A stretch of DNA of 22,444 nucleotides. Origin: a virus. The stretch lies in IMG/VR virus record IMGVR_UViG_3300015374_000072, positions 1 through 22,444 of that record; one strand, 5' to 3'. Positions within the stretch are counted from its first letter, which is position 1. Every line of letters starts with the position of its first letter. Below the pieces are notes generated by a model that made no database searches, was not told the origin of the DNA, and saw only the letters and a list, made by a program, of their open reading frames with translations. Below are positions 1 through 22,444 of the stretch, one piece after another. A program made the position numbers and the translations under genes.

Positions 1-29
1 AGCGGGACGACGACAGTGCTGCAGCGTGA
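1..29 (+). CDS. Tail end of the 79-aa membrane gene (left repeat copy)
   Basis: The last codons, ending DDDSAAA and TGA at 27-29, repeat those at 22325-22353 with one silent difference. This is only the terminal-repeat copy, not an independent gene. Confidence 0.75.
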
Positions 30-120
30 ACGGATGGGCGGTGGCGGGAGCTGGTGCGCCTTCCCCGCGTCGGGTTGCGGGATGACGTGGGCGTAGACCT
101 TGAGCGTCACCCCGGCGTCC
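1..120. repeat. Left copy of 120-bp terminal direct repeat
   Basis: Bases 1-120 repeat at 22325-22444. Positions 37-120 are identical to 22361-22444. The four mismatches fall at 23, 30, 35 and 36. The repeat stops exactly at the window's last base, which is what the overlap of a circular contig looks like. It carries the 3' part of the integrase frame and the last codons of the small membrane-protein gene otherwise found at 22114-22353. The mismatches may be population variants or contig-end errors. Confidence 0.9.
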
Positions 121-1160
121 GCGTGGCCGAGCCAGCGGCTGACCTGGAGGTAGTGGTCTGGCGGGCCGTTGCGGAGCTGGAGCGTGGCGAATGTGTGCCG
201 GAGGTCGTGGAGCCGGGTGTGCGGGAGCCCCGCCGCGCGGACGGCCGGGATGAACACGCGCCGGTAGAAGTTCGACGGCTCCACCGGGAACAGCCGCTCA
301 TCGGCACTGCGGCCCGCCGTGTACTCCGTCAGCAGCTCCGCTAGCCACCCGTCAAGCGGCACCGTGCGACGGCTCGCCCGCGACTTCGGGGTGCCGGTCT
401 CCCACCCGCCCCGGACCTTCCGCCGCGTCCGGTTCACCCGCACCGCCCCAGAGGCGAGGTCCCCGACATCGAGCCCGGCTAGCTCGGCCGCGCGGAGGCC
501 GGTGTAGGCGAGGAACAGCACCACGAGCTGATGCGTCGGGTCGGCGATCTCCTCGACGACAGCGGCCACCTCTTCGGCCGTGAGCGCGCGGCCCTCGAAC
601 TCCTCCCCCGCCGTCGAGCGCCCGCCGAGGTCGACCAGCGCGGCCGGGTTGGTGTCGATGATGTCGTGGCGCACCGCGTACAGCAGGACCCGGTTGAACC
701 CGGCCCAGGCGTTCCGGAACGTCCGCGCCGCTATGCCGCGCTCCGAGAGCCCCTGCGCCCACGCCTCCGCCGTCCGGCCGGTAATCGCGCCCACCGGGAC
801 CGCTGCCCACGCAGGCAACACATGACGCCGCAGGACGGCCCCGTACTCCTCGTGGGTCCGGGCCTTGAGCTTGCCGGTCGCGACCCGCGGCTCCAGAGAC
901 GCAAGCCAGGCTTCCGCAACGGAGCCAAACAGGGCCTCACCCGCCGAGGCATCGCGGACCGGCCCAGTCGCAGACTCGACCTCGGCCCGCCAGGCGTTGG
1001 CTTCGCGGCGCGTGTGGAACGTCTGCTGCCGGTAGCGCTTGGCGACTCCGCTGCCGTTGAACGCCATCTCGGCCCAGCGCACCTCATAGTGCGTCACCAC
1101 GCCGCCCCGCGGTGCGCAGCGCTCGCAGGCCTGGGGGTTGACCTTCTGGATGTGCGCCAC
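1..1160 (-). CDS. int: Tyrosine integrase, 3' end cut by the window edge
   Basis: Site-specific recombinase that would insert the phage at a tRNA-Arg gene. The frame runs from GTG at 1160 with no stop to base 1 (386 codons). Using the right-hand copy it ends at 22303, giving 393 residues. The catalytic set is complete: R223 in a TGLR motif, K259 in the beta-hairpin, H318 and R321 in LHDLRH, H346 in LGH, and nucleophile Y356. An N-terminal SAM-like core-binding domain lies around residues 75-170. The stop TAG of the upstream 64-aa gene shares one base with the GTG start, so translation is probably coupled. The attP candidate lies beyond the 3' end at 21911-21957, a normal int-attP arrangement. 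Confidence 0.95.
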   Translation of the reverse strand, partial: MAHIQKVNPQACERCAPRGGVVTHYEVRWAEMAFNGSGVAKRYRQQTFHTRREANAWRAEVESATGPVRDASAGEALFGSVAEAWLASLEPRVATGKLKARTHEEYGAVLRRHVLPAWAAVPVGAITGRTAEAWAQGLSERGIAARTFRNAWAGFNRVLLYAVRHDIIDTNPAALVDLGGRSTAGEEFEGRALTAEEVAAVVEEIADPTHQLVVLFLAYTGLRAAELAGLDVGDLASGAVRVNRTRRKVRGGWETGTPKSRASRRTVPLDGWLAELLTEYTAGRSADERLFPVEPSNFYRRVFIPAVRAAGLPHTRLHDLRHTFATLQLRNGPPDHYLQVSRWLGHADAGVTLKVYAHVIPQPDAGKAHQLPPPPIRSRCSTVVVP

Positions 1161-1354
1161 TACTCGCCCCGGCGCCGATAGAACGTGCTGTCGGGCGTGT
1201 ACCGCGCTCGCGTGCCGTCAGCGAACTGGAGCGCAACCACCTGCCCCTCGTCCTCGCGCTTCACGCATGCCACCTTGCGCAGTCCCTCCTGGTTGAAGAT
1301 GACGTCCCCTGCCTCCAGCGCGTCCGCCGAAGCGATCTCCCAAGCTCTGTCCAC
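1160..1354 (-). CDS. 64-aa protein in excisionase/RDF position
   Basis: Small acidic protein lying directly upstream of the integrase and overlapping it by one base (TAG/GTG). The GTG start at 1354 has a GGGAGGT ribosome-binding site at 1360-1366. The sequence looks beta-rich and has no helix-turn-helix that I can see, so it is not a classical MerR-like Xis. Position and coupling suggest a recombination directionality factor or an integrase modulator, but that is inference. The SD and start codon both sit in hairpins (1349-1377), suggesting translational control of this gene and of int. Confidence 0.7.
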   Translation of the reverse strand: MDRAWEIASADALEAGDVIFNQEGLRKVACVKREDEGQVVALQFADGTRARYTPDSTFYRRRGE

Positions 1355-1439: not shown

Positions 1440-1458
1440 TAGACGCTGACCGCGTCTA
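1440..1458. promoter_or_regulatory. Operator dyad O1 (TAGACGC-N5-GCGTCTA)
   Basis: Perfect 7-bp inverted repeat with spacer TGACC, between the leftward RDF-int pair and the rightward repressor gene. A weak -35/-10 pair (TTAGAC at 1439, TATCCC at 1461, 16-bp spacing) overlaps it. The same dyad recurs at 18059, 18112 and 21853. Likely the binding site of the repressor encoded at 1510. Confidence 0.75.
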
Positions 1459-1509: not shown

Positions 1510-1773
1510 TTGCCGTTCAATCCAGATGTTGAGCAGAAGTCACCTATGACCAGGGCCCTGTTGGTGGTCGGCCACACGCTGCGGTCTGCGAGCGAGGAAA
1601 TGGGCGTGAGTTACCAGCACCTTGCCAACGTTGCACGCGGCCGAACGCACCCCAGGCCCGAGGTCATCAAGGGGTTCGAGCAGCTCACCGGCAAGCCCCT
1701 GAAGGACTTTGTATCCGACTGGGCGTTGGCCAAGCCCTATGACGCGAATTGCGCCACCAAAGGCGTGGATTAG
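1510..1773 (+). CDS. Cro/CI-family HTH repressor
   Basis: 87-aa protein with a Xre/Cro-type helix-turn-helix in the middle. The segment around residues 24-60 (LRSASEEMGVSYQHLANVARG followed by a PxPEVIKGFEQLTG region) fits helices 1 to 5 of HTH_3. There is no dimerisation or peptidase domain, so it is a short regulator rather than a LexA-like CI. The start is TTG at 1510, with GGGGAG at 1498-1503 as ribosome-binding site. The O1 dyad lies 50-70 bases upstream, so autoregulation together with repression of the divergent RDF-int unit is likely. It is the best candidate immunity repressor and the best candidate binder of the four dyads. Confidence 0.8.
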   Translation: MPFNPDVEQKSPMTRALLVVGHTLRSASEEMGVSYQHLANVARGRTHPRPEVIKGFEQLTGKPLKDFVSDWALAKPYDANCATKGVD

Positions 1774-3649: not shown

Positions 3650-4264
3650 TTACGGCCGCATCCAGGTCAAGTGGATGTGCGTGCCCTGGTTAACCACGGC
3701 CACATCTTTGTTCGAGCCCGAGTCTTGGAAAGCGTTGACGACGATTGTGTCCCCGGCCACGAACCGCTTGGTGAACCCAGCCGACGGGGTGAACGCCGCG
3801 GTACCGTTGGGGATTGAGAACTGCTCCCCGTAGCGGGTGGTGCCGTTGTCGGGGCCGATCCATAGTCCGTACCGGTTTCCGGAGCTAGTGGTGGCCCAGC
3901 GGATCGCCGCGTCTATCGACCAGATGCCCGCCCGATTGAGCGTGAACTTCGCGTTGGCGATGCTGCCGGCCGTCGAGGTCCCCTGTGTGACGTCAGAGGC
4001 CGTGATGACCGACGTGTCGAAGCCGACCGGCCGGTCAGTAGCGGTTGGGATGGTCTGCGTGCCGCTGAGGTAATACTCGGCTTCGTGGTTAGTCACGCCC
4101 GTCGCGACGAACGAGCGCCACGCTGAACCGTCGTACCAGGCGTAGAGCCCGGTGTCGGTCTCGTAGATCAGCTGCCCCGTGTGGCCGGCCGGGTGCGTGG
4201 CAGATGTACAAACGTACACGCTCATCTGTGACGCGCGCAGCTTCTGCCCTGCGGTGTAAGACAT
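3650..4264 (-). CDS. Receptor-binding / tail tip protein, C1q-like
   Basis: 204-aa last gene of the late operon. The N-terminal 50 residues (TAGQKLRASQM, then CTSATHPAGHTGQLIYETDTG and W residues) are a module repeatedly seen at the start of actinophage tail-tip or fibre proteins. Residues about 60-204 have the pattern of a C1q/TNF-like jelly roll: F-T-L-N-R-AGIWSIDAAIRW, later GDTIVVNAFQDSG, ending HLTWMRP. It would form a trimer at the tail tip and bind the host surface. ATG at 4264 has AGGAG eight bases upstream. Position directly after the large minor tail gene supports the call. Confidence 0.8.
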   Translation of the reverse strand: MSYTAGQKLRASQMSVYVCTSATHPAGHTGQLIYETDTGLYAWYDGSAWRSFVATGVTNHEAEYYLSGTQTIPTATDRPVGFDTSVITASDVTQGTSTAGSIANAKFTLNRAGIWSIDAAIRWATTSSGNRYGLWIGPDNGTTRYGEQFSIPNGTAAFTPSAGFTKRFVAGDTIVVNAFQDSGSNKDVAVVNQGTHIHLTWMRP

Positions 4265-6558: not shown

Positions 6559-7067
6559 TCGTCCCAGACAACCCAGCAGAGCGCGTTGACCGCGGCGGAG
6601 AAGGTCACGCGCACCCGGAGGAACTTGGACACGGCCACGATCGGCCGCTCGTCCGGCATGAACTGGTAGGCGTAGTTGATCGGGGCCGCGCCGTTCGAGA
6701 CGCCTGCGACCTCCTGCGCGTCGAACACGCGCGTCGCGGTGATCGAGCCCTCCGCGCTGCCGGTGTAGCCCGTGGCGCTCGTGCCCAGCGTCATCAGCGA
6801 GGCGGGCGCGTTTGGGTCGAGCGGCTGCACCCCGGCCGCGACGTGGGCCGTCACGGTCGCCGCGACGTCCGTCTGCAGCAGCTCAACCACGCCGACACCG
6901 GTAGTCGCGGGCGCGGCGTCGAGCGAGAAGCCCCAGCCGATGATCTGGATCTGCTTGGTGGCGGGCGTGGCGACCTGGAGCAGCGTCTTGACGGCGGTGC
7001 CGGTGGTGACCTTCACCTGCGCGGCCGTGGTGGGCATCGGCCCGTTCCACGTCTTGAACCTGTTCAT
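6555..7067 (-). CDS. 170-aa virion-associated protein
   Basis: Placed between the tape measure and the large minor tail gene, where distal tail proteins are encoded. The sequence is beta-rich and almost free of lysine after residue 40, with hydrophobic strands such as KQIQIIGWGFSLDA and FLRVRVTFSAAVNALCWVVW. No enzyme motif is visible. It could be a distal tail or decoration protein. ATG at 7067 has AGGG six to ten bases upstream. Its stop overlaps the next start. Confidence 0.65.
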   Translation of the reverse strand: MNRFKTWNGPMPTTAAQVKVTTGTAVKTLLQVATPATKQIQIIGWGFSLDAAPATTGVGVVELLQTDVAATVTAHVAAGVQPLDPNAPASLMTLGTSATGYTGSAEGSITATRVFDAQEVAGVSNGAAPINYAYQFMPDERPIVAVSKFLRVRVTFSAAVNALCWVVWDE

Positions 7068-7080
7068 CAGTAGCCCTTTC

Positions 7081-8550
7081 CTAGGCGATCTGGATCTGCT
7101 TGGTGCGGACCAGGTAGTTGATAAGCTCCGCCACCTTGGAGTCGGCGCTGCCCTTCACGATCAGCGTCCCGCCCCGCGGGCCTCCCGAACTGCCCTGCGC
7201 CATGCGGTGGTTCGGCGTGACGTAGCCCGAGCCCGGCATAGTCAGGTATTCCGGGCCGCGCTCGCCGACCAGGTACGTCTGGCCCTTGTTAACGGTGCCG
7301 CCGACCGCGCGGCCGGGAATCAATCCGCGGATGTAGGACGACACATTCGCCACAGCGTTGACCGTGATGGTCCGCGCGGCGGGCAGCAGGCCGATCGTCC
7401 GGACGAGATCCTGGACCTCGCGCAGACCGCGTGTGTTCGCGTTGATGTCGACGGCCTTGGAATGCATCGCATCGACAGTGCCGCGGAACCGGTCAATGCC
7501 TTCCTTGGCGCTGTTGGTCGAGACCGCGGCAGATCGCATCGACGCGCCGAACTGACCGGGCAGCAGGCCGAGGACGGCGAACACGCGCGACATCGCGCCG
7601 AGCGTTGTCGACACGAACGACAGCACGCCCGAGGTCACCGACAGGAACGCAATAACGCTCTGCTGCGCGAAGTCCTCGACCGAGTCAATGTTGCTGGAGA
7701 GCCAGTTAATGAACCCCGCCAAGGCCGGGATTACCACGCCGATGATGAGGTCTGCCAACGCCGGTAGCACGTGCGAGATGATCGGGGTTAGCTTATCCAA
7801 CAACTTCTGGAGCGGCGGCCCGAGCTGGATGAACGCCTGCCCGAGTACCTTGCCAACGGCGTCCGCGAGCATCAGCACGATTGGCGCCAGCATCTTGAGG
7901 ACCGGGGCGAGCCCTGTTGCGGCGTCTGCGATCAGCCGCCCGAGGATCGGCAGCAACCCGTTGATGACGCTGAACAGCGAGGAAAGGATTGATGCGGCCG
8001 GTCCGCCCGCAGTTGAGATGGCCTGGAACATCTGGCTCAAGCCGGTGCCGGTCCCTGCGAGCCCCGCGCTAAGCGCATCAATGACCGGCTTGGCCGCCTG
8101 CATCCCAGACAGAAAACCAGGCATGACGTTCTTGACGAGCGACGCGAGACCGCTAGCCAAGGTCTCCACATACGGAGCCGTGGTGGCGAACGCCTGCCGA
8201 AGCTGCGGCCCCATTGCGTCGAACGTCTTGCGCCCGAGGTCCGAGATCCGCATCAGCACCGGCTCGAACGGCTGGGCCATACTCTTCAGCTCGGAGACAA
8301 CGTGATCCTTTAGCCCGGTGAAGGATGCCTTGACCTTCTCGTTCTGCGCGGCGATGGCAATGCCGAGCCCGGCGAACCCGACAGCGACACCGGCCAGGGC
8401 GGCAGGCGCGGACACGGCAGCAACGCCACCGAGAATCGAGCCCCACTTCAGCGTGGCGCCGGTGACCGATGTCAGCTTGTCCTGGACATCGGTGAGGGTC
8501 CGGCCGAGCCGGTTATCACCGACGAACTGCAGGATGACCCTGTTGGCCAT
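7081..8550 (-). CDS. Tail tape measure protein
   Basis: 489 aa. A hydrophobic N-terminal zone (residues ~35-68, alanine/glycine-rich) and repeated hydrophobic helices (150-330) are typical of tape measures. The C-terminal region contains the common motif GRAVGGTVNKGQTYLVGERG followed by a PEYLTMPG segment. It is short for the family. By the usual rule of about 0.15 nm per residue the tail would be near 70-75 nm. It follows the tail-chaperone genes and a gp10-like gene. No lysozyme or peptidase domain is evident. Confidence 0.9.
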   Translation of the reverse strand: MANRVILQFVGDNRLGRTLTDVQDKLTSVTGATLKWGSILGGVAAVSAPAALAGVAVGFAGLGIAIAAQNEKVKASFTGLKDHVVSELKSMAQPFEPVLMRISDLGRKTFDAMGPQLRQAFATTAPYVETLASGLASLVKNVMPGFLSGMQAAKPVIDALSAGLAGTGTGLSQMFQAISTAGGPAASILSSLFSVINGLLPILGRLIADAATGLAPVLKMLAPIVLMLADAVGKVLGQAFIQLGPPLQKLLDKLTPIISHVLPALADLIIGVVIPALAGFINWLSSNIDSVEDFAQQSVIAFLSVTSGVLSFVSTTLGAMSRVFAVLGLLPGQFGASMRSAAVSTNSAKEGIDRFRGTVDAMHSKAVDINANTRGLREVQDLVRTIGLLPAARTITVNAVANVSSYIRGLIPGRAVGGTVNKGQTYLVGERGPEYLTMPGSGYVTPNHRMAQGSSGGPRGGTLIVKGSADSKVAELINYLVRTKQIQIA

Positions 8551-8551
8551 A

Positions 8552-8974
8552 TCAGCTCACGTCCAAACCAGAACTCTCGGCGTACCGCTCTAGCGCGGCG
8601 GCCATAATGCGACGGACGGCTGGCTGGTTCCGTTCGTATGCCGGGTAGATGTACCGCCCGGACTTGAAGAACGGCCGCCGCTTCTCCTGGTTGGGGTATG
8701 GCCGCACCGTGCCGCCGAAGTCCAGCCAGGGGTAATAGGGGTACTTCCGCCCGCCGCCCTGGACGCCCCAGCCGTCGCCCTGGCGGAGCGCATAGACGCT
8801 GTTCCGCGCATGGCCGTTGATCCCCGGCCCGATCGGCACCTGTCGCCGCGCGGCCTTAGCGACAAGCTGCGCGGCCTCCTTGGAGGCGTCGTCAATGACC
8901 TTCGGCATGGAGGCGTCGAGTCGGCCAACGGCGCGGCGGAATTGCTGGAGTCCGTAGACCTTGACCGCAACCAT
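8552..8974 (-). CDS. HK97 gp10-like head-tail/tail protein
   Basis: 140 aa. The profile fits the HK97-gp10 family: VYGLQQFRRAVGRL at the start, a central VPIGPGINGHARNS segment, a WLDFGGTVRPYP motif and a final helix of AALERYAES type. Such proteins bridge or complete the head-tail junction. The start ATG at 8974 has GAGAAGGG upstream and shares one base with the stop of the chaperone extension (TGATG). Its place after the chaperones and before the tape measure is unusual; the family is normally encoded before the major tail gene. Confidence 0.8.
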   Translation of the reverse strand: MVAVKVYGLQQFRRAVGRLDASMPKVIDDASKEAAQLVAKAARRQVPIGPGINGHARNSVYALRQGDGWGVQGGGRKYPYYPWLDFGGTVRPYPNQEKRRPFFKSGRYIYPAYERNQPAVRRIMAAALERYAESSGLDVS

Positions 8975-9927: not shown

Positions 9928-10329
9928 CTACTGGTCCGTGGTGGTAACTGCGCCAGTGATCTGCAGCTCGGCCGACCACGTGACCATGTCGGCAACCCCG
10001 GCCACTTCCTCATAGGCGGTCAGCACGCCCGAGCCGGTAAGGGATGGCCGCCCTGCGGCGGTGCCTGCGGCCTGGTAGGTCCAGGTCAGCGTCGTGGCGA
10101 GCGCGCCCTGGAATGTGATGCGCGGGTTGCTGGCGTCGCCGTCGTCGTAGGTGCCCTTTACCGAGATCGTGCCGTCCGTCAGGCCGCCCTGATAGGCGTG
10201 GCCCGTGGCGCCATACACCGTGATGTCGTGCGAGTCGCCCGCGCGCTTGACCTCGACGCTATTGCAGAAGGCAGAAAGGTCGGTCGAGCCAATCTTGAAG
10301 ACCGCACTCTTACCATGAACGAATGCCAT
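9928..10329 (-). CDS. Major tail protein, paralogue 2
   Basis: 133 aa, starting MAFVHGKSAVFKIG. It is a tandem duplicate of the next gene, with the same length and motifs. It follows the tail-terminator gene with one base between the previous stop and this ATG (10329); AGGAG is inside the previous gene's end. Both copies are intact and diverged evenly, suggesting both are used. They could form a mixed tube, or one could be a specialised ring. Confidence 0.85.
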   Translation of the reverse strand: MAFVHGKSAVFKIGSTDLSAFCNSVEVKRAGDSHDITVYGATGHAYQGGLTDGTISVKGTYDDGDASNPRITFQGALATTLTWTYQAAGTAAGRPSLTGSGVLTAYEEVAGVADMVTWSAELQITGAVTTTDQ

Positions 10330-17599: not shown

Positions 17600-17687
17600 C
17601 TCGTGCTCCCCCGAGCTACGCCGTTCCGGTCGGCGCTACGTCTAGCTTACTACGTCGTAGTACGTACACGATACTTCCACGGCGGTT

Positions 17688-17778
17688 CCTTACGGGGGGG
17701 TACGGTGCAAGATAGCTCCGTATAGCAGATAGCAGCTACTGCAGTAGGACATATACTTTTCTATACCCCCCCGTAAGG
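17688..17778. repeat. 15-bp perfect inverted repeat with 61-bp spacer
   Basis: CCTTACGGGGGGGTA (17688-17702) and its exact reverse complement (17764-17778) flank 61 bases that are more AT-rich than the surroundings. The spacer contains a perfect 12-bp palindrome at 17736-17747 and repeated ATAGC units. Each arm carries one TTACGGG motif. The structure may be an origin cruciform or the stem of a structured RNA. Confidence 0.75.
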
Positions 17779-18058
17779 AGTTAATAAGAGAGTCTAGAGC
17801 TTGTATTGCCCCTGGTCCGGCCCACTTTCTGCTTACGGGTACCCCCTCCCCCGTTACCCCCGCTAACCCACCCGTAACACCCCCCGTTACGGGGGTGCGC
17901 CTGCCCCTGCCTGGCGCGGGGTCGAGGTCGGCGAGCCCTCGGTGAGCGCGGCCCGAGGCCCTTACGGAGGGGGCTTACGGGTGGGGCTGAGCCCTGCCGC
18001 GGGCCGGGAACGACTGCACGCCGCCTACTACGCCGAACGAGGGAATCCTAGACACCAC

Positions 18059-18077
18059 TAGAAGCTACTAGCGTCTA
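18059..18077. promoter_or_regulatory. Operator dyad O2
   Basis: TAGAAGC-TACTA-GCGTCTA, one mismatch from the perfect dyad found at 1440 and 18112. It lies 53 bases left of O3, about five helical turns, so a repressor could bind both on the same face. Confidence 0.65.
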
Positions 18078-18111
18078 CATGTAGCCCATTCCGCCTGGTA
18101 GCCGTTGTGAA

Positions 18112-18130
18112 TAGACGCCAATAGCGTCTA
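18112..18130. promoter_or_regulatory. Operator dyad O3
   Basis: TAGACGC-CAATA-GCGTCTA, a perfect 7-bp dyad identical in its arms to O1, with a different spacer. It lies 29 bases upstream of the -35 of the promoter candidate at 18159-18186. Confidence 0.75.
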
Positions 18131-18158
18131 CCCCCAAAACCGTGTGGCGTTAGCCATT

Positions 18159-18186
18159 TTGAACGAGCCTTCACGACCCGTAACGT
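18159..18186 (+). promoter_or_regulatory. Sigma-70-like promoter for the replication operon
   Basis: TTGAAC (18159-18164), a 16-bp spacer, then TAACGT (18181-18186). It is the best consensus match in the window. A TTACGGG motif in inverse orientation (18177-18183) overlaps the -10, and O2/O3 lie just upstream, so repression is plausible. The first downstream start is at 18231. Confidence 0.55.
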
Positions 18187-18230: not shown

Positions 18231-18443
18231 ATGGCTAGGAACGCACCTACACGAAAGAAGCTGTCGATGCCTGACGCTATCGCGCACACGGGCTACCCGG
18301 CGCCAATCATCCGCGCCGCGGTCAAGGCGGGCACGCTCCGCGCCGAGCGGCCGTCCGGTTGGGAGCGCGGGCCGTACTACTTCACCGAGTCCGACCTGGA
18401 CGCCTGGCTCGACTCGATCACCGTCAACGCCGAGGAGTCCTGA
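18231..18443 (+). CDS. Excisionase-like / MerR-type HTH protein
   Basis: 70 aa with a winged-helix pattern of the HTH_17/excisionase type: SMPDAIAHTGYPAPIIRAAV (helices 1 and 2), a RAERPSGWERG wing, and YYFTESDLDAWLDSI as the last helix. It could be the true RDF, encoded apart from int, or a regulator of the replication operon. ATG at 18231 is preceded by GGAGG at 18217-18221. A longer frame to 18144 has no ribosome-binding site and would place its start inside the promoter region. It sits just after operators O2 and O3. Confidence 0.75.
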   Translation: MARNAPTRKKLSMPDAIAHTGYPAPIIRAAVKAGTLRAERPSGWERGPYYFTESDLDAWLDSITVNAEES

Positions 18444-18736: not shown

Positions 18737-18768
18737 GCCCGCCCCAGGGTCTGGAACCTGAGACGGGC
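18737..18768 (+). terminator. Imperfect hairpin after the membrane-protein gene
   Basis: GCCCG, CAGG and an 8-nt loop pair with CCTG and CGGGC, separated by a symmetric CCC/AGA internal loop. It starts just after the stop at 18732. It may be a weak terminator or attenuator before the primase; there is no U tract. Confidence 0.4.
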
Positions 18769-18814
18769 CGTGCGCTTCCCCAAATGAAGGCAATTCGAGC
18801 TTACCCTGATTCGC

Positions 18815-18825
18815 TACGCTAGTAA
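18815..18825 (+). promoter_or_regulatory. Shared promoter-like element ahead of the primase
   Basis: Exact copy of TACGCTAGTAA found ahead of the repressor gene (1473-1483). It lies 39 bases upstream of the primase start, so the primase-helicase pair may have its own promoter. Confidence 0.4.
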
Positions 18826-18853
18826 ATCGCTCCCCGCGAATGAAGGAAGTACA

Positions 18854-19675: not shown

Positions 19676-21213
19676 AGACCGACGAGCACCGGGAAGGGCT
19701 GCCCGAGGCGCTGCCGATCCCCAAGAGCAGGGCGCCATACGCGATTGATGAGCTTGATGGTGCTCTGCGCTTTGTGGATGTGTACGGCCCGTACGTCCGA
19801 TACTCCGAACTAGACGGCTGGGTGGCCTGGAACGGTTTGCGTTGGGATAGGCAACACGGTGAGCACGGCGTCAAGCTGATGGTGCGGGCTATGGTCCGGG
19901 CCTGGGCTGAGGAGATCGATGCGCGAAAGGATCTCAAGGACGACGCCAAGGTCTCGATGACCACAAGGGTCAAGGGCCTGCTCTCCGGCAGCAAGTTGAA
20001 GAACCTCCTTGGCCACGTCCGCACGCACTTCGACGTCGCGACCCCGGGCGGCTACTTCGACGCGGATGCGACTCTGCTGGGCGCCGAGGGCGCTGTAGTT
20101 GAGCTGACCGCGGATGGAGTGAAGCAGCGTCGGATGATCCCGGAGGACCGGGTCACGATGAAGACCGGCGCGCGGTTGAACCCCGATGCCAAGCACAAGA
20201 TGTGGGATGCGTACCTGGACCTGTTCGTGCCAGACCACGGCACACGCCAGGCCCTGAAGGAGGCGGCCGGACGTCTGCTGCTCGGCGGCAACCGAGAGCG
20301 CCTGTTTGTGGTCCTGATGGGCCGCAGTACCTCCGGCAAGAGCCTGTTCCTCAAGCTTGTGGACCGGGCGCTCGGGGAGTACGCCGGGCCGGGCGACCTG
20401 ACGATGTTCCGGGGCAACATTGACGAACGGCCGCGCGTCGACCTGGTGCGGGCTATGCCGAAGCGCCTGGTGCACACGACTGAGGCCAGTGAGGCATGGA
20501 CACTGCACGCGGATATGGTTAAGCGCATCGCGGGTGCGGACAGCATCTCGGCGCGACTGAACCACGGCAACGATATGTACGAAGGAGTGCCGCACTTCAC
20601 ATTCTGGCTGGCGACGAACAACGTGCCGCGGATCGCGGGCATGGATCAGGCGACGCTGCGCAGGATCGTGGTGTTCCCCTTCAACCAGACGCCTGCACGC
20701 GAGGACACATCCATCGGCGACAAGATGCTGAATGACCCGGAGGTGATCGAGGCCGTTCTGGCCTGGATGGCTGAGGGCTACGATGACTTTGTCGCCCGCG
20801 GCGAGGTCATGCGAGACAGCCGAGAGATGGCTGTGGCCAAAGCCAAGTTCGCTGACCAAGCCGGACCGGCTGGCGACTTCCTGGCTACGTGCTGTGAAGT
20901 CACGGGCAACCCGAACGACGGTCTGCTCACAACGGGGCTCTACAAAATGTACCAGTTCTTCTGCAAGGAGAACGGCATTCGGAATCGGGATCTGATGGCG
21001 CTGAACCAGTTTGCCCTTGCACTGGAAGAGACCGAGACGCTTGAGCGCAACTCTGCCGAAGGCGCACACAAGGTCTCTACTGTGCGCGGGCTGACCTTCA
21101 AGACAGAGTGGGTCAACCGTCTGAAGAGCAGCCCTGATGCCCCTGACGAGTCAATGTGCGCACCGCTCGGGCCCAAGCCTAAGCCGCGCGCACGTCGTGC
21201 TCGAAAGGCGTAG
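19672..21213 (+). CDS. Phage P4/D5-type SF3 helicase
   Basis: 513 aa. A D5_N-like region spans about residues 35-200 (YVRYSELDGWVAWNGLRWD onward). It is followed by an SF3 ATPase: Walker A GRSTSGKS at 217-224, Walker B region RLVHTTEASE around 265-274, sensor FTFWLATNN at 309-317 and an arginine-finger candidate at R330/R331. A C-terminal winged-helix-like part follows and the end is very basic. It would unwind phage DNA at the origin as a hexamer beside the separate TOPRIM primase. No DNA polymerase is encoded, so the host enzyme is presumably recruited. A TTG at 19666 is in frame but weaker. Confidence 0.9.
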   Translation: MKTDEHREGLPEALPIPKSRAPYAIDELDGALRFVDVYGPYVRYSELDGWVAWNGLRWDRQHGEHGVKLMVRAMVRAWAEEIDARKDLKDDAKVSMTTRVKGLLSGSKLKNLLGHVRTHFDVATPGGYFDADATLLGAEGAVVELTADGVKQRRMIPEDRVTMKTGARLNPDAKHKMWDAYLDLFVPDHGTRQALKEAAGRLLLGGNRERLFVVLMGRSTSGKSLFLKLVDRALGEYAGPGDLTMFRGNIDERPRVDLVRAMPKRLVHTTEASEAWTLHADMVKRIAGADSISARLNHGNDMYEGVPHFTFWLATNNVPRIAGMDQATLRRIVVFPFNQTPAREDTSIGDKMLNDPEVIEAVLAWMAEGYDDFVARGEVMRDSREMAVAKAKFADQAGPAGDFLATCCEVTGNPNDGLLTTGLYKMYQFFCKENGIRNRDLMALNQFALALEETETLERNSAEGAHKVSTVRGLTFKTEWVNRLKSSPDAPDESMCAPLGPKPKPRARRARKA

Positions 21214-21320: not shown

Positions 21321-21647
21321 ATGTCCGCTCTCCCTATGCCCAATGAAGCCCGCGAAACCCCCGGTGTTGAGCCGATCTGGCCGAACTGGACCCCGCAGAA
21401 GCACGTCCTGGGCAACCGGCTGTTTCTGCTGCCGTCGCCGGACCGCTACCCTTACCTGTACCGCAAGCTGGAGGCGAGCCCCGGCGTGTGGGTCTACGGG
21501 CTCCGAGACCGGCTTGCGCCCGGCACCCCCGACGAGCAGATCGCAGAGCTGAACCGGCGCATCCGGCGCCACCGCCGCGCGGCCGTCGACCGGGCGATCG
21601 AGTACGGCCGCCAGAGGCACGCCGACTTCGCGGAAGGACGACCGTGA
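21321..21647 (+). CDS. Hypothetical 108-aa protein under the RNA element
   Basis: ATG 21321 follows AAAGG at 21309-21313, in the hairpin arm. The N-terminal half is rich in Pro, Trp and Tyr (PIWPNWTPQKHVLGNRLFLL, then PDRYPYLYRKLEASPG). The C-terminal half is a basic helix (IAELNRRIRRHRRAAVDRAI). No family is recognised; a DNA- or RNA-binding accessory is possible from the basic helix. It follows the helicase by 107 bases and overlaps the next gene by four. Confidence 0.65.
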   Translation: MSALPMPNEARETPGVEPIWPNWTPQKHVLGNRLFLLPSPDRYPYLYRKLEASPGVWVYGLRDRLAPGTPDEQIAELNRRIRRHRRAAVDRAIEYGRQRHADFAEGRP

Positions 21648-21844
21648 GCCACGAGGAGGAGCCTTGCGTGTGCGGCACCGACTTCATATGCCTGGCTCTC
21701 GTACACGCCGCCGGTCTGGTGCTCCCCACGGCGCTGTGGAATGCGTGCGTCGCACCCCCGGTGCAACCCCTCCGGAACCCCTCCGGAACCGTCCATCACC
21801 AACCGCAACCAACCCCTACCGGCGAGACGCGCACAGCGTCTTGA
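21644..21844 (+). CDS. 66-aa Cys-containing small protein
   Basis: GTG 21644 overlaps the previous stop (GTGA). Cysteines lie at about residues 8, 10, 16 and 35. A hydrophobic segment spans residues 15-32 (ICLALVHAAGLVLPTALW). The tail is proline-rich and partly encoded by a tandem 12-bp repeat (CCCCTCCGGAAC, about 21766-21789). Possibly membrane associated. Function is unknown. Confidence 0.55.
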   Translation: MSHEEEPCVCGTDFICLALVHAAGLVLPTALWNACVAPPVQPLRNPSGTVHHQPQPTPTGETRTAS

Positions 21845-21852
21845 CCAGGAGG

Positions 21853-21871
21853 TAGACGCCAAGCGCTTCTA
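21853..21871. promoter_or_regulatory. Operator dyad O4 beside attP
   Basis: TAGACGC-CAAGC-GCTTCTA, one mismatch from the perfect dyad. It lies 40 bases left of the tRNA-derived attP segment and nine bases after the stop of the previous gene. Confidence 0.6.
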
Positions 21872-21910
21872 CCGAGCAGGGACAACGTCCCCGGCGATTC
21901 GGCCCGACCT

Positions 21911-21957
21911 TCGGTTTCCTAAACCGAGTGCCGCAGGTTCGAATCCTGCCGGGGGCA
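21911..21957 (+). other. attP candidate: 3' half of tRNA-Arg(CCT)
   Basis: The segment reads as a tRNA from the anticodon stem to the discriminator base: stem TCGGT/ACCGA, loop with anticodon CCT (21918-21920), variable GTGCC, T-arm GCAGG-TTCGAAT-CCTGC, acceptor strand CGGGGGC and A. The D-arm and 5' acceptor strand (expected GCCCCCG) are absent upstream, so it is not a working tRNA. Integrases of this class commonly use the 3' half of a tRNA gene as core, restoring the host gene on integration. A small inverted repeat (ACCTG, CAGGT) overlaps its right edge at 21957-21972. Confidence 0.85.
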
Positions 21958-22113
21958 CCTGTTTTACCAGGTCAAACGGCACGTAGCCGTCGCGCGGGCG
22001 GAGCCGAACCCCTCCGCATCCCCTTCAGCGTAGGCACCGGTTTGCGCCGTCTCCCGGTGTCTGGCATGATCGCAGAGTCCCCTCCAGTTATGAGTGCAAA
22101 AATGAGGAAACTC

Positions 22114-22353
22114 ATGACTGCAGGGCTTTGGCCTGCCGGAATGCTGGCTGCCCCTCTGGCTTACCCGATCTACCTGTTGCTGATGGCTGGCGTCATGCGC
22201 ATCTGCGGCGTCGCCAAGGCGGACATCGCCAAGTGGGTCCTCCACCAGGCCGGTCGGCAGCGCTTCCTTGACCTCGTCCACGCGGCGCGGAGGCTTCCCG
22301 AGCTACCCGGTGCGCCTGCCGCGGAGCGGGACGACGACAGTGCTGCGGCGTGA
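22114..22353 (+). CDS. 79-aa membrane-associated protein, convergent with int
   Basis: ATG 22114 has GAGGAAA at 22104-22110; ATG 22102 is an alternative that adds four residues. Residues about 8-28 are hydrophobic (GMLAAPLAYPIYLLLMAGVM). A basic amphipathic helix follows (ADIAKWVLHQAGRQRFLDLV) and the tail is acidic (DDDSAAA). Its last 51 bases overlap the end of int on the opposite strand. The end of the gene repeats at window bases 1-29. Lying between attP and int, it would be separated from the rest of the early genes after integration. Function is unknown. Confidence 0.6.
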   Translation: MTAGLWPAGMLAAPLAYPIYLLLMAGVMRICGVAKADIAKWVLHQAGRQRFLDLVHAARRLPELPGAPAAERDDDSAAA

Positions 22354-22444
22354 GCGGAGCGGCGGTGGCGGGAGCTGGTGCGCCTTCCCCGCGTCGGGTT
22401 GCGGGATGACGTGGGCGTAGACCTTGAGCGTCACCCCGGCGTCC
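22303..22444 (-). CDS. int: C-terminal end of the same integrase (right-hand copy)
   Basis: This segment repeats the last part of the integrase frame (about residue 348 onward) and adds seven residues and the stop TAG at 22303-22305. The catalytic tyrosine lies within it. Its 3' end overlaps, on the opposite strand, the last 51 bases of the small membrane-protein gene at 22114-22353. On the circular map it is the same gene as 1-1160, not a second integrase. Confidence 0.85.
   Translation of the reverse strand, partial: DAGVTLKVYAHVIPQPDAGKAHQLPPPPLRSRRSTVVVPLRGRRTG
22325..22444. repeat. Right copy of 120-bp terminal direct repeat
   Basis: This is the partner of bases 1-120 at 116 of 120 identity. 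It joins the right end of the map back to the integrase gene. In the integrase frame the mismatches change two residues (Ile to Leu and Cys to Arg, left to right copy). In the overlapping membrane-protein frame the only mismatch before the stop is silent. Confidence 0.9.

Follow-up and report, generated by a model that had tools for sequence, protein, structure and literature searches.

A dyad family in the control regions

The window, by which we mean the whole stretch of 22,444 nucleotides analysed here, is a small temperate phage of actinobacteria, and its control regions carry an inverted repeat, TAGACGC-N5-GCGTCTA, whose copies form a real, well-placed, phage-specific and operator-like family. 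Judged from their sequence, it is very probable that a single switch protein of the phage docks at these dyads. Two copies are perfect: one (1440-1458, TAGACGC-TGACC-GCGTCTA) separates a leftward operon of a 64-aa gene and int from a rightward repressor-like gene, and the other is located at 18112-18130. The latter is 53 bp, or about five helical turns, from a copy with one mismatch at 18059-18077 (TAGAAGC-TACTA-GCGTCTA), which is accompanied by an extra half-site, TAGACAC, at 18049. A further copy with one mismatch (21853-21871) is flanked by putative integrase arm repeats on one side and by the attP core on the other. An earlier note on this DNA had reported these four dyads, all in non-coding control positions; our scan confirmed both the coordinates and the placement, non-coding DNA comprising 7.2% of the window as taken here.

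The claim that only these four sites exist holds as far as one mismatch is allowed, where exactly four are found. The next best site, however, had been overlooked. It is a fifth copy with two mismatches, both in the outermost bases (21824-21842, GAGACGC-GCACA-GCGTCTT), its inner 6+6 (AGACGC-N5-GCGTCT) being perfect. It is spaced 29 bp from the site at 21853 and shares bases with the stop codon of an ORF of 66 aa (21644-21844) that is itself doubtful. The note had named many equally good dyads in coding DNA as the result that would speak against it; the window has no further site within one mismatch. Exact half-sites are similarly distributed, six of nine falling within the 7.2% taken as non-coding. 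Isolated half-sites in coding DNA are at 3909, 8793 and 15177; the first and last had been noted (near 3908 and 15174), the one at 8793 had not.

Markov-shuffled genomes contain on average 0.005 TAGACGC-N5-GCGTCTA sites with one mismatch and 0.095 with two. We also scanned the window for all 7+7 dyads with gaps of 0-12, without reference to any particular sequence, and compared it with 60 shuffled genomes. The TAGACGC dyad was the sole family with at least three near-identical copies in the window. Three of the 60 shuffles reached a three-copy family and none reached four copies, which argues against a chance origin. One dyad was called terminator-like, on the minus strand, as might be expected if the palindromes acted as RNA hairpins or terminators instead of operators. 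The remaining copies were not called, and the terminator reading was rejected on the ground that a single copy was called; against hairpins in general, the sites share their very sequence and not the pairing alone. Chance, hairpins and terminators are thus a highly improbable explanation of the family.

The exact dyad is present in 37 other viral contigs of varied G+C content, mostly as a single copy in each. None of these contigs has a comparable site set or, by tblastn, homologous proteins, and we treat these occurrences as chance rather than as related systems. Several two-mismatch sites are present in L013. Among 297 Actinomycetes genomes the exact dyad was absent, whereas a reversed control pattern occurred in 13. 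These genomes are sampled species representatives, among which the true host of the phage may not be found, but absence from all of them makes a common host regulon unlikely. Taken together with the lack of a comparable set in the viral contigs, it indicates that the dyad is phage-specific.

The integration module

The window encodes a tyrosine integrase, a toprim protein and a D5-type helicase, and its terminase, major head and tape-measure genes run leftward. Its ends (1-120 and 22325-22444) repeat each other over 120 bp with 96.7% identity, the differences being clustered near the integrase C-terminus. Judged from these ends, the 22,444-base record probably represents a circular genome in which two strain variants meet at the join. 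The integrase gene (1-1160, minus strand) runs on at its C-terminus across the presumed circle junction 22444/1, and the 64-aa gene (1160-1354, minus strand) is coupled to it, stop and start codons overlapping by one base.

The attP site is a tRNA-Arg(CCT)-like sequence (21887-21959, plus strand). Like Streptomyces phage RP3 (X80661), the window has its attP core in the 3´ end of this tRNA gene, with 93% identity to the annotated RP3 core over 43 bp. Unlike the window, the RP3 record contains no dyad within three mismatches. To the left of the core lie two tandem 11-bp repeats, AACCCCTCCGG (21765-21786, plus strand), which are putative integrase arm sites, and to its right a third copy, AACCCCTCCG (22007-22016, plus strand). 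The three exact copies of AACCCCTCCG (21765, 21776 and 22007) thus flank the core, and the sequence is absent elsewhere in the window. Both dyads of this region, 21824 and 21853, sit between the left pair of arm repeats and the core.

The dyads might be bound by some factor other than those discussed below. It could be a regulator of the host, the integrase or a further phage product, for example the HTH protein at 2014 or the 64-aa protein. The phage does encode several small HTH or uncharacterised proteins, and it is by inference that we name the 87-aa protein at 1510 (see below) as the binder. Yet AACCCCTCCG, present three times on both sides of the core, is a better candidate for integrase arm sites than the dyad, and a host regulator is disfavoured by the absence of the exact dyad from the 297 species representatives (control in 13), even if the true host perhaps falls outside this sample. 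On balance we find such a factor improbable.

The origin side and a possible dual regulator

A probable replication origin (about 17687-18183) combines long inverted repeats with seven iterons of CCCGTAA, a sequence that has no copy in coding DNA. It is followed by a gene for a 70-aa HTH_17 protein (18231-18443, plus strand), excisionase- or regulator-like, which is the first gene ahead of the replication genes. The only recognisable promoter of this gene, TTGAAC-N16-TAACGT (18159-18186, plus strand), is a candidate found by inspection and missed by a strict consensus scan. Dyads 18059 and 18112 are located some 30-100 bp upstream of it and do not overlap it, so simple repression of replication by promoter occlusion is not evident.

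The 18231 protein itself might be the binder of the dyads, acting both as a recombination directionality factor and as a transcriptional regulator in the manner of Apl, Cox and Vis. Its targets would then be the DNA ahead of its own gene, the part of attP that separates the Int arm sites from the core, and the int/repressor interval. The site locations match such a dual protein well, compare Apl of coliphage 186: sites are found at attP (21824/21853) as well as in transcription control regions (1440, 18059/18112), a linkage of recombination and gene control that the window shares with Apl, Cox and Vis. The top PHROG match of the 18231 protein is also an excisionase and transcriptional regulator, and half-sites within 18049-18078 recur at 10-bp spacing. 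The symmetry of the sites, on the other hand, speaks against it. The targets of recombination directionality factors, the functional class that this protein resembles, are direct repeats spaced by about one helical turn, with presumably one monomer on each; for Apl the spacing is 10-11 bp, and monomers bind the repeats (PMC7498355). The window's sites, unlike those of Apl, are inverted 7-N5-7 dyads with a constant spacer, and direct repeats about one turn apart are found at 18049/18059 only (10 bp). A relative described below, in which no integrase was found, retains a homologue of the 18231 protein, which need not therefore be an excisionase. We consider this protein an unlikely binder.

More than one recurring element

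The dyad is not the only element shared by these regions. A second non-coding motif, GACGTAGTA, occurs as direct copies around the 3´ end of the 1510 gene (1773-1818) and again in the origin region (17648-17662 and 18026), where it includes a perfect palindrome, TACTACGTCGTAGTA. Allowing one mismatch, 11 sites are present in the window against 2.3 expected. This motif suggests more than one regulator; it is possibly the operator of a second one, and it could even be the motif, rather than the dyad, that is the true target of the 1510 protein. The control regions therefore carry at least three recurring elements: the dyad, GACGTAGTA and CCCGTAA. The idea of a single regulon linking integration, replication and immunity survives insofar as a phage-specific, operator-like dyad is common to the int/repressor, origin and attP regions; it does not accommodate the second motif and the origin iterons. 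Both "four sites" and "one regulon" oversimplify, and one regulator of everything exceeds the evidence.

The 1510 protein and its control region

The gene to the right of dyad 1440 (1510-1773, plus strand, TTG start) encodes the protein of 87 aa that had been proposed as the regulator. Its description as an HTH protein is borne out, Pfam (HTH_3, 24.9 bits, cut-off 23) and an all-helical model assigning it to the XRE/HTH_3 class. The model was built from a two-sequence alignment and has a pLDDT of 77. XRE regulators, ClgR, SinR and 434 repressor among them, make up most of its closest structural matches, all of which are of weak statistical significance (E of about 0.05 upwards, none below 0.04). 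Close relatives of the protein were found in neither viral contigs, genome contigs nor plasmids; phage records gave weak, partial matches in four records. A two-sequence profile retrieved a single viral contig, the relative described below, and had no match in 396 genomes.

Site 1440 falls where one would look for the -35 of a putative promoter of the 1510 gene, whose -10, TACGCT, was located by inspection at 1473-1478. Strict consensus scans gave no sigma-70 promoter in any of the three dyad regions.

A dimer would fit the symmetry of the dyad sites, their length of about two helical turns and their constant N5 spacer. The 18231 protein fits less well because excisionase-like factors bind direct repeats. 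Given its HTH_3 score and an all-helical model with XRE matches, the 1510 protein is the simplest candidate binder. We infer, with somewhat better than even confidence, that a symmetric helix-turn-helix dimer encoded by the phage uses the dyad as its operator, the 1510 protein being the most likely one.

A relative with an exchanged module

Terminase searches yielded one close relative, IMGVR_UViG_3300037119_000887 (L085, 22.3 kb; hereafter G001). Identity between G001 and the window is 82% for TerL, 76% for the portal, 45% for the repressor homologue and 33% for the HTH_17 homologue; no second relative carrying both of these regulators was found. In G001 no integrase was detected, either among ORFs or by comparison, and there is no tRNA-like attP; in the region around 6805-7186, about 60 bases stand in place of the window's attP/int module. 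The replication protein also differs, being a Prim-Pol plus AAA protein. As far as the two sequences tell, the difference in attP/int module and replication protein is a natural module swap. No TAGACGC dyad within one mismatch occurs in G001, nor does the unbiased scan reveal a recurring 7+7 dyad of its own.

These observations bear on the 1510 protein in two ways. G001 keeps the protein in the absence of integrase and dyad, which is evidence against the proposed role: the main function of the protein need not involve such operators. The G001 homologue retains the helix-core (third-helix structural) positions and the C-terminal helices and differs at most of the exposed residues of the recognition helix, namely at Q36, A39, N40, A42, R43 and G44. 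Such changes, seen in a single pair of proteins, are of the kind that divergent specificity would produce.

A non-coding leader or promoter of 70 bp (GCTTCCCCAAA...GAAGGCAATT...TACGSTAGTAAA) is conserved between the window (18762-18826) and G001 (10093-10162). It precedes a replication gene in both phages, though these genes differ, and TACGCTAGTAA is found once more in front of the 1510 gene.

Other TerL/portal relatives (L044-L079, L099-L110 and L087 in Micromonospora globbae) were set aside, as neither a dyad set nor a significant homologue of the repressor was found in them, and no relatives of the primase-helicase or integrase were found in viral contigs. In L046, a phage of the same terminase group, CCGGTCA-N3-TGACCGG occurs five times without mismatch in a span of under 150 bp (20943-21088), an operator- or origin-like array.

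A possible circuit

CI/Cro-type phage repressors (lambda, 434, P22) are small HTH_3 proteins with dyad operators. The window resembles these systems in encoding a small HTH_3 protein and in having a repeated, symmetric, two-turn operator-like dyad in the repressor control region and in a distant early region. It departs from them in that sites are also found beside attP, no face-to-face pair of early promoters was recognised, and the candidate binder, the 1510 protein, consists of an HTH domain with short tails only.

If the 1510 protein is the binder, a dimer at 1440 would cover the -35 of its own promoter, resulting in autoregulation, and would also lie a short way upstream of the promoter for the leftward 64-aa/int operon. 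Dimers at 18059 and 18112, on the same face of DNA five turns apart, might modulate transcription of the HTH_17, primase and helicase genes or a leftward origin transcript. Those at 21824 and 21853 would sit in the left arm of attP, with the Int arm repeats on one side and the core on the other. One protein would in this way tie together integration, replication and its own level; it may repress or activate, and it might affect recombination. A more far-reaching version has one minimal XRE repressor seated directly on the attP DNA that separates the Int arm sites from the core, on the origin region and on its own promoter; the occupancy of one dyad would then gate immunity, replication and the direction of recombination alike. 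This version appears doubtful to us.

The circuit is of an ordinary kind for phages, and the dyad operator adds a case. Should the 1510 protein bind all five sites, this compact actinophage of 22 kb would use one very small protein to couple its lysogeny and replication with recombination at the attachment site. An operator would then be defined for an uncharacterised repressor lineage, and the phage would offer a simple two-protein system for the influence of a repressor on tyrosine-integrase recombination.
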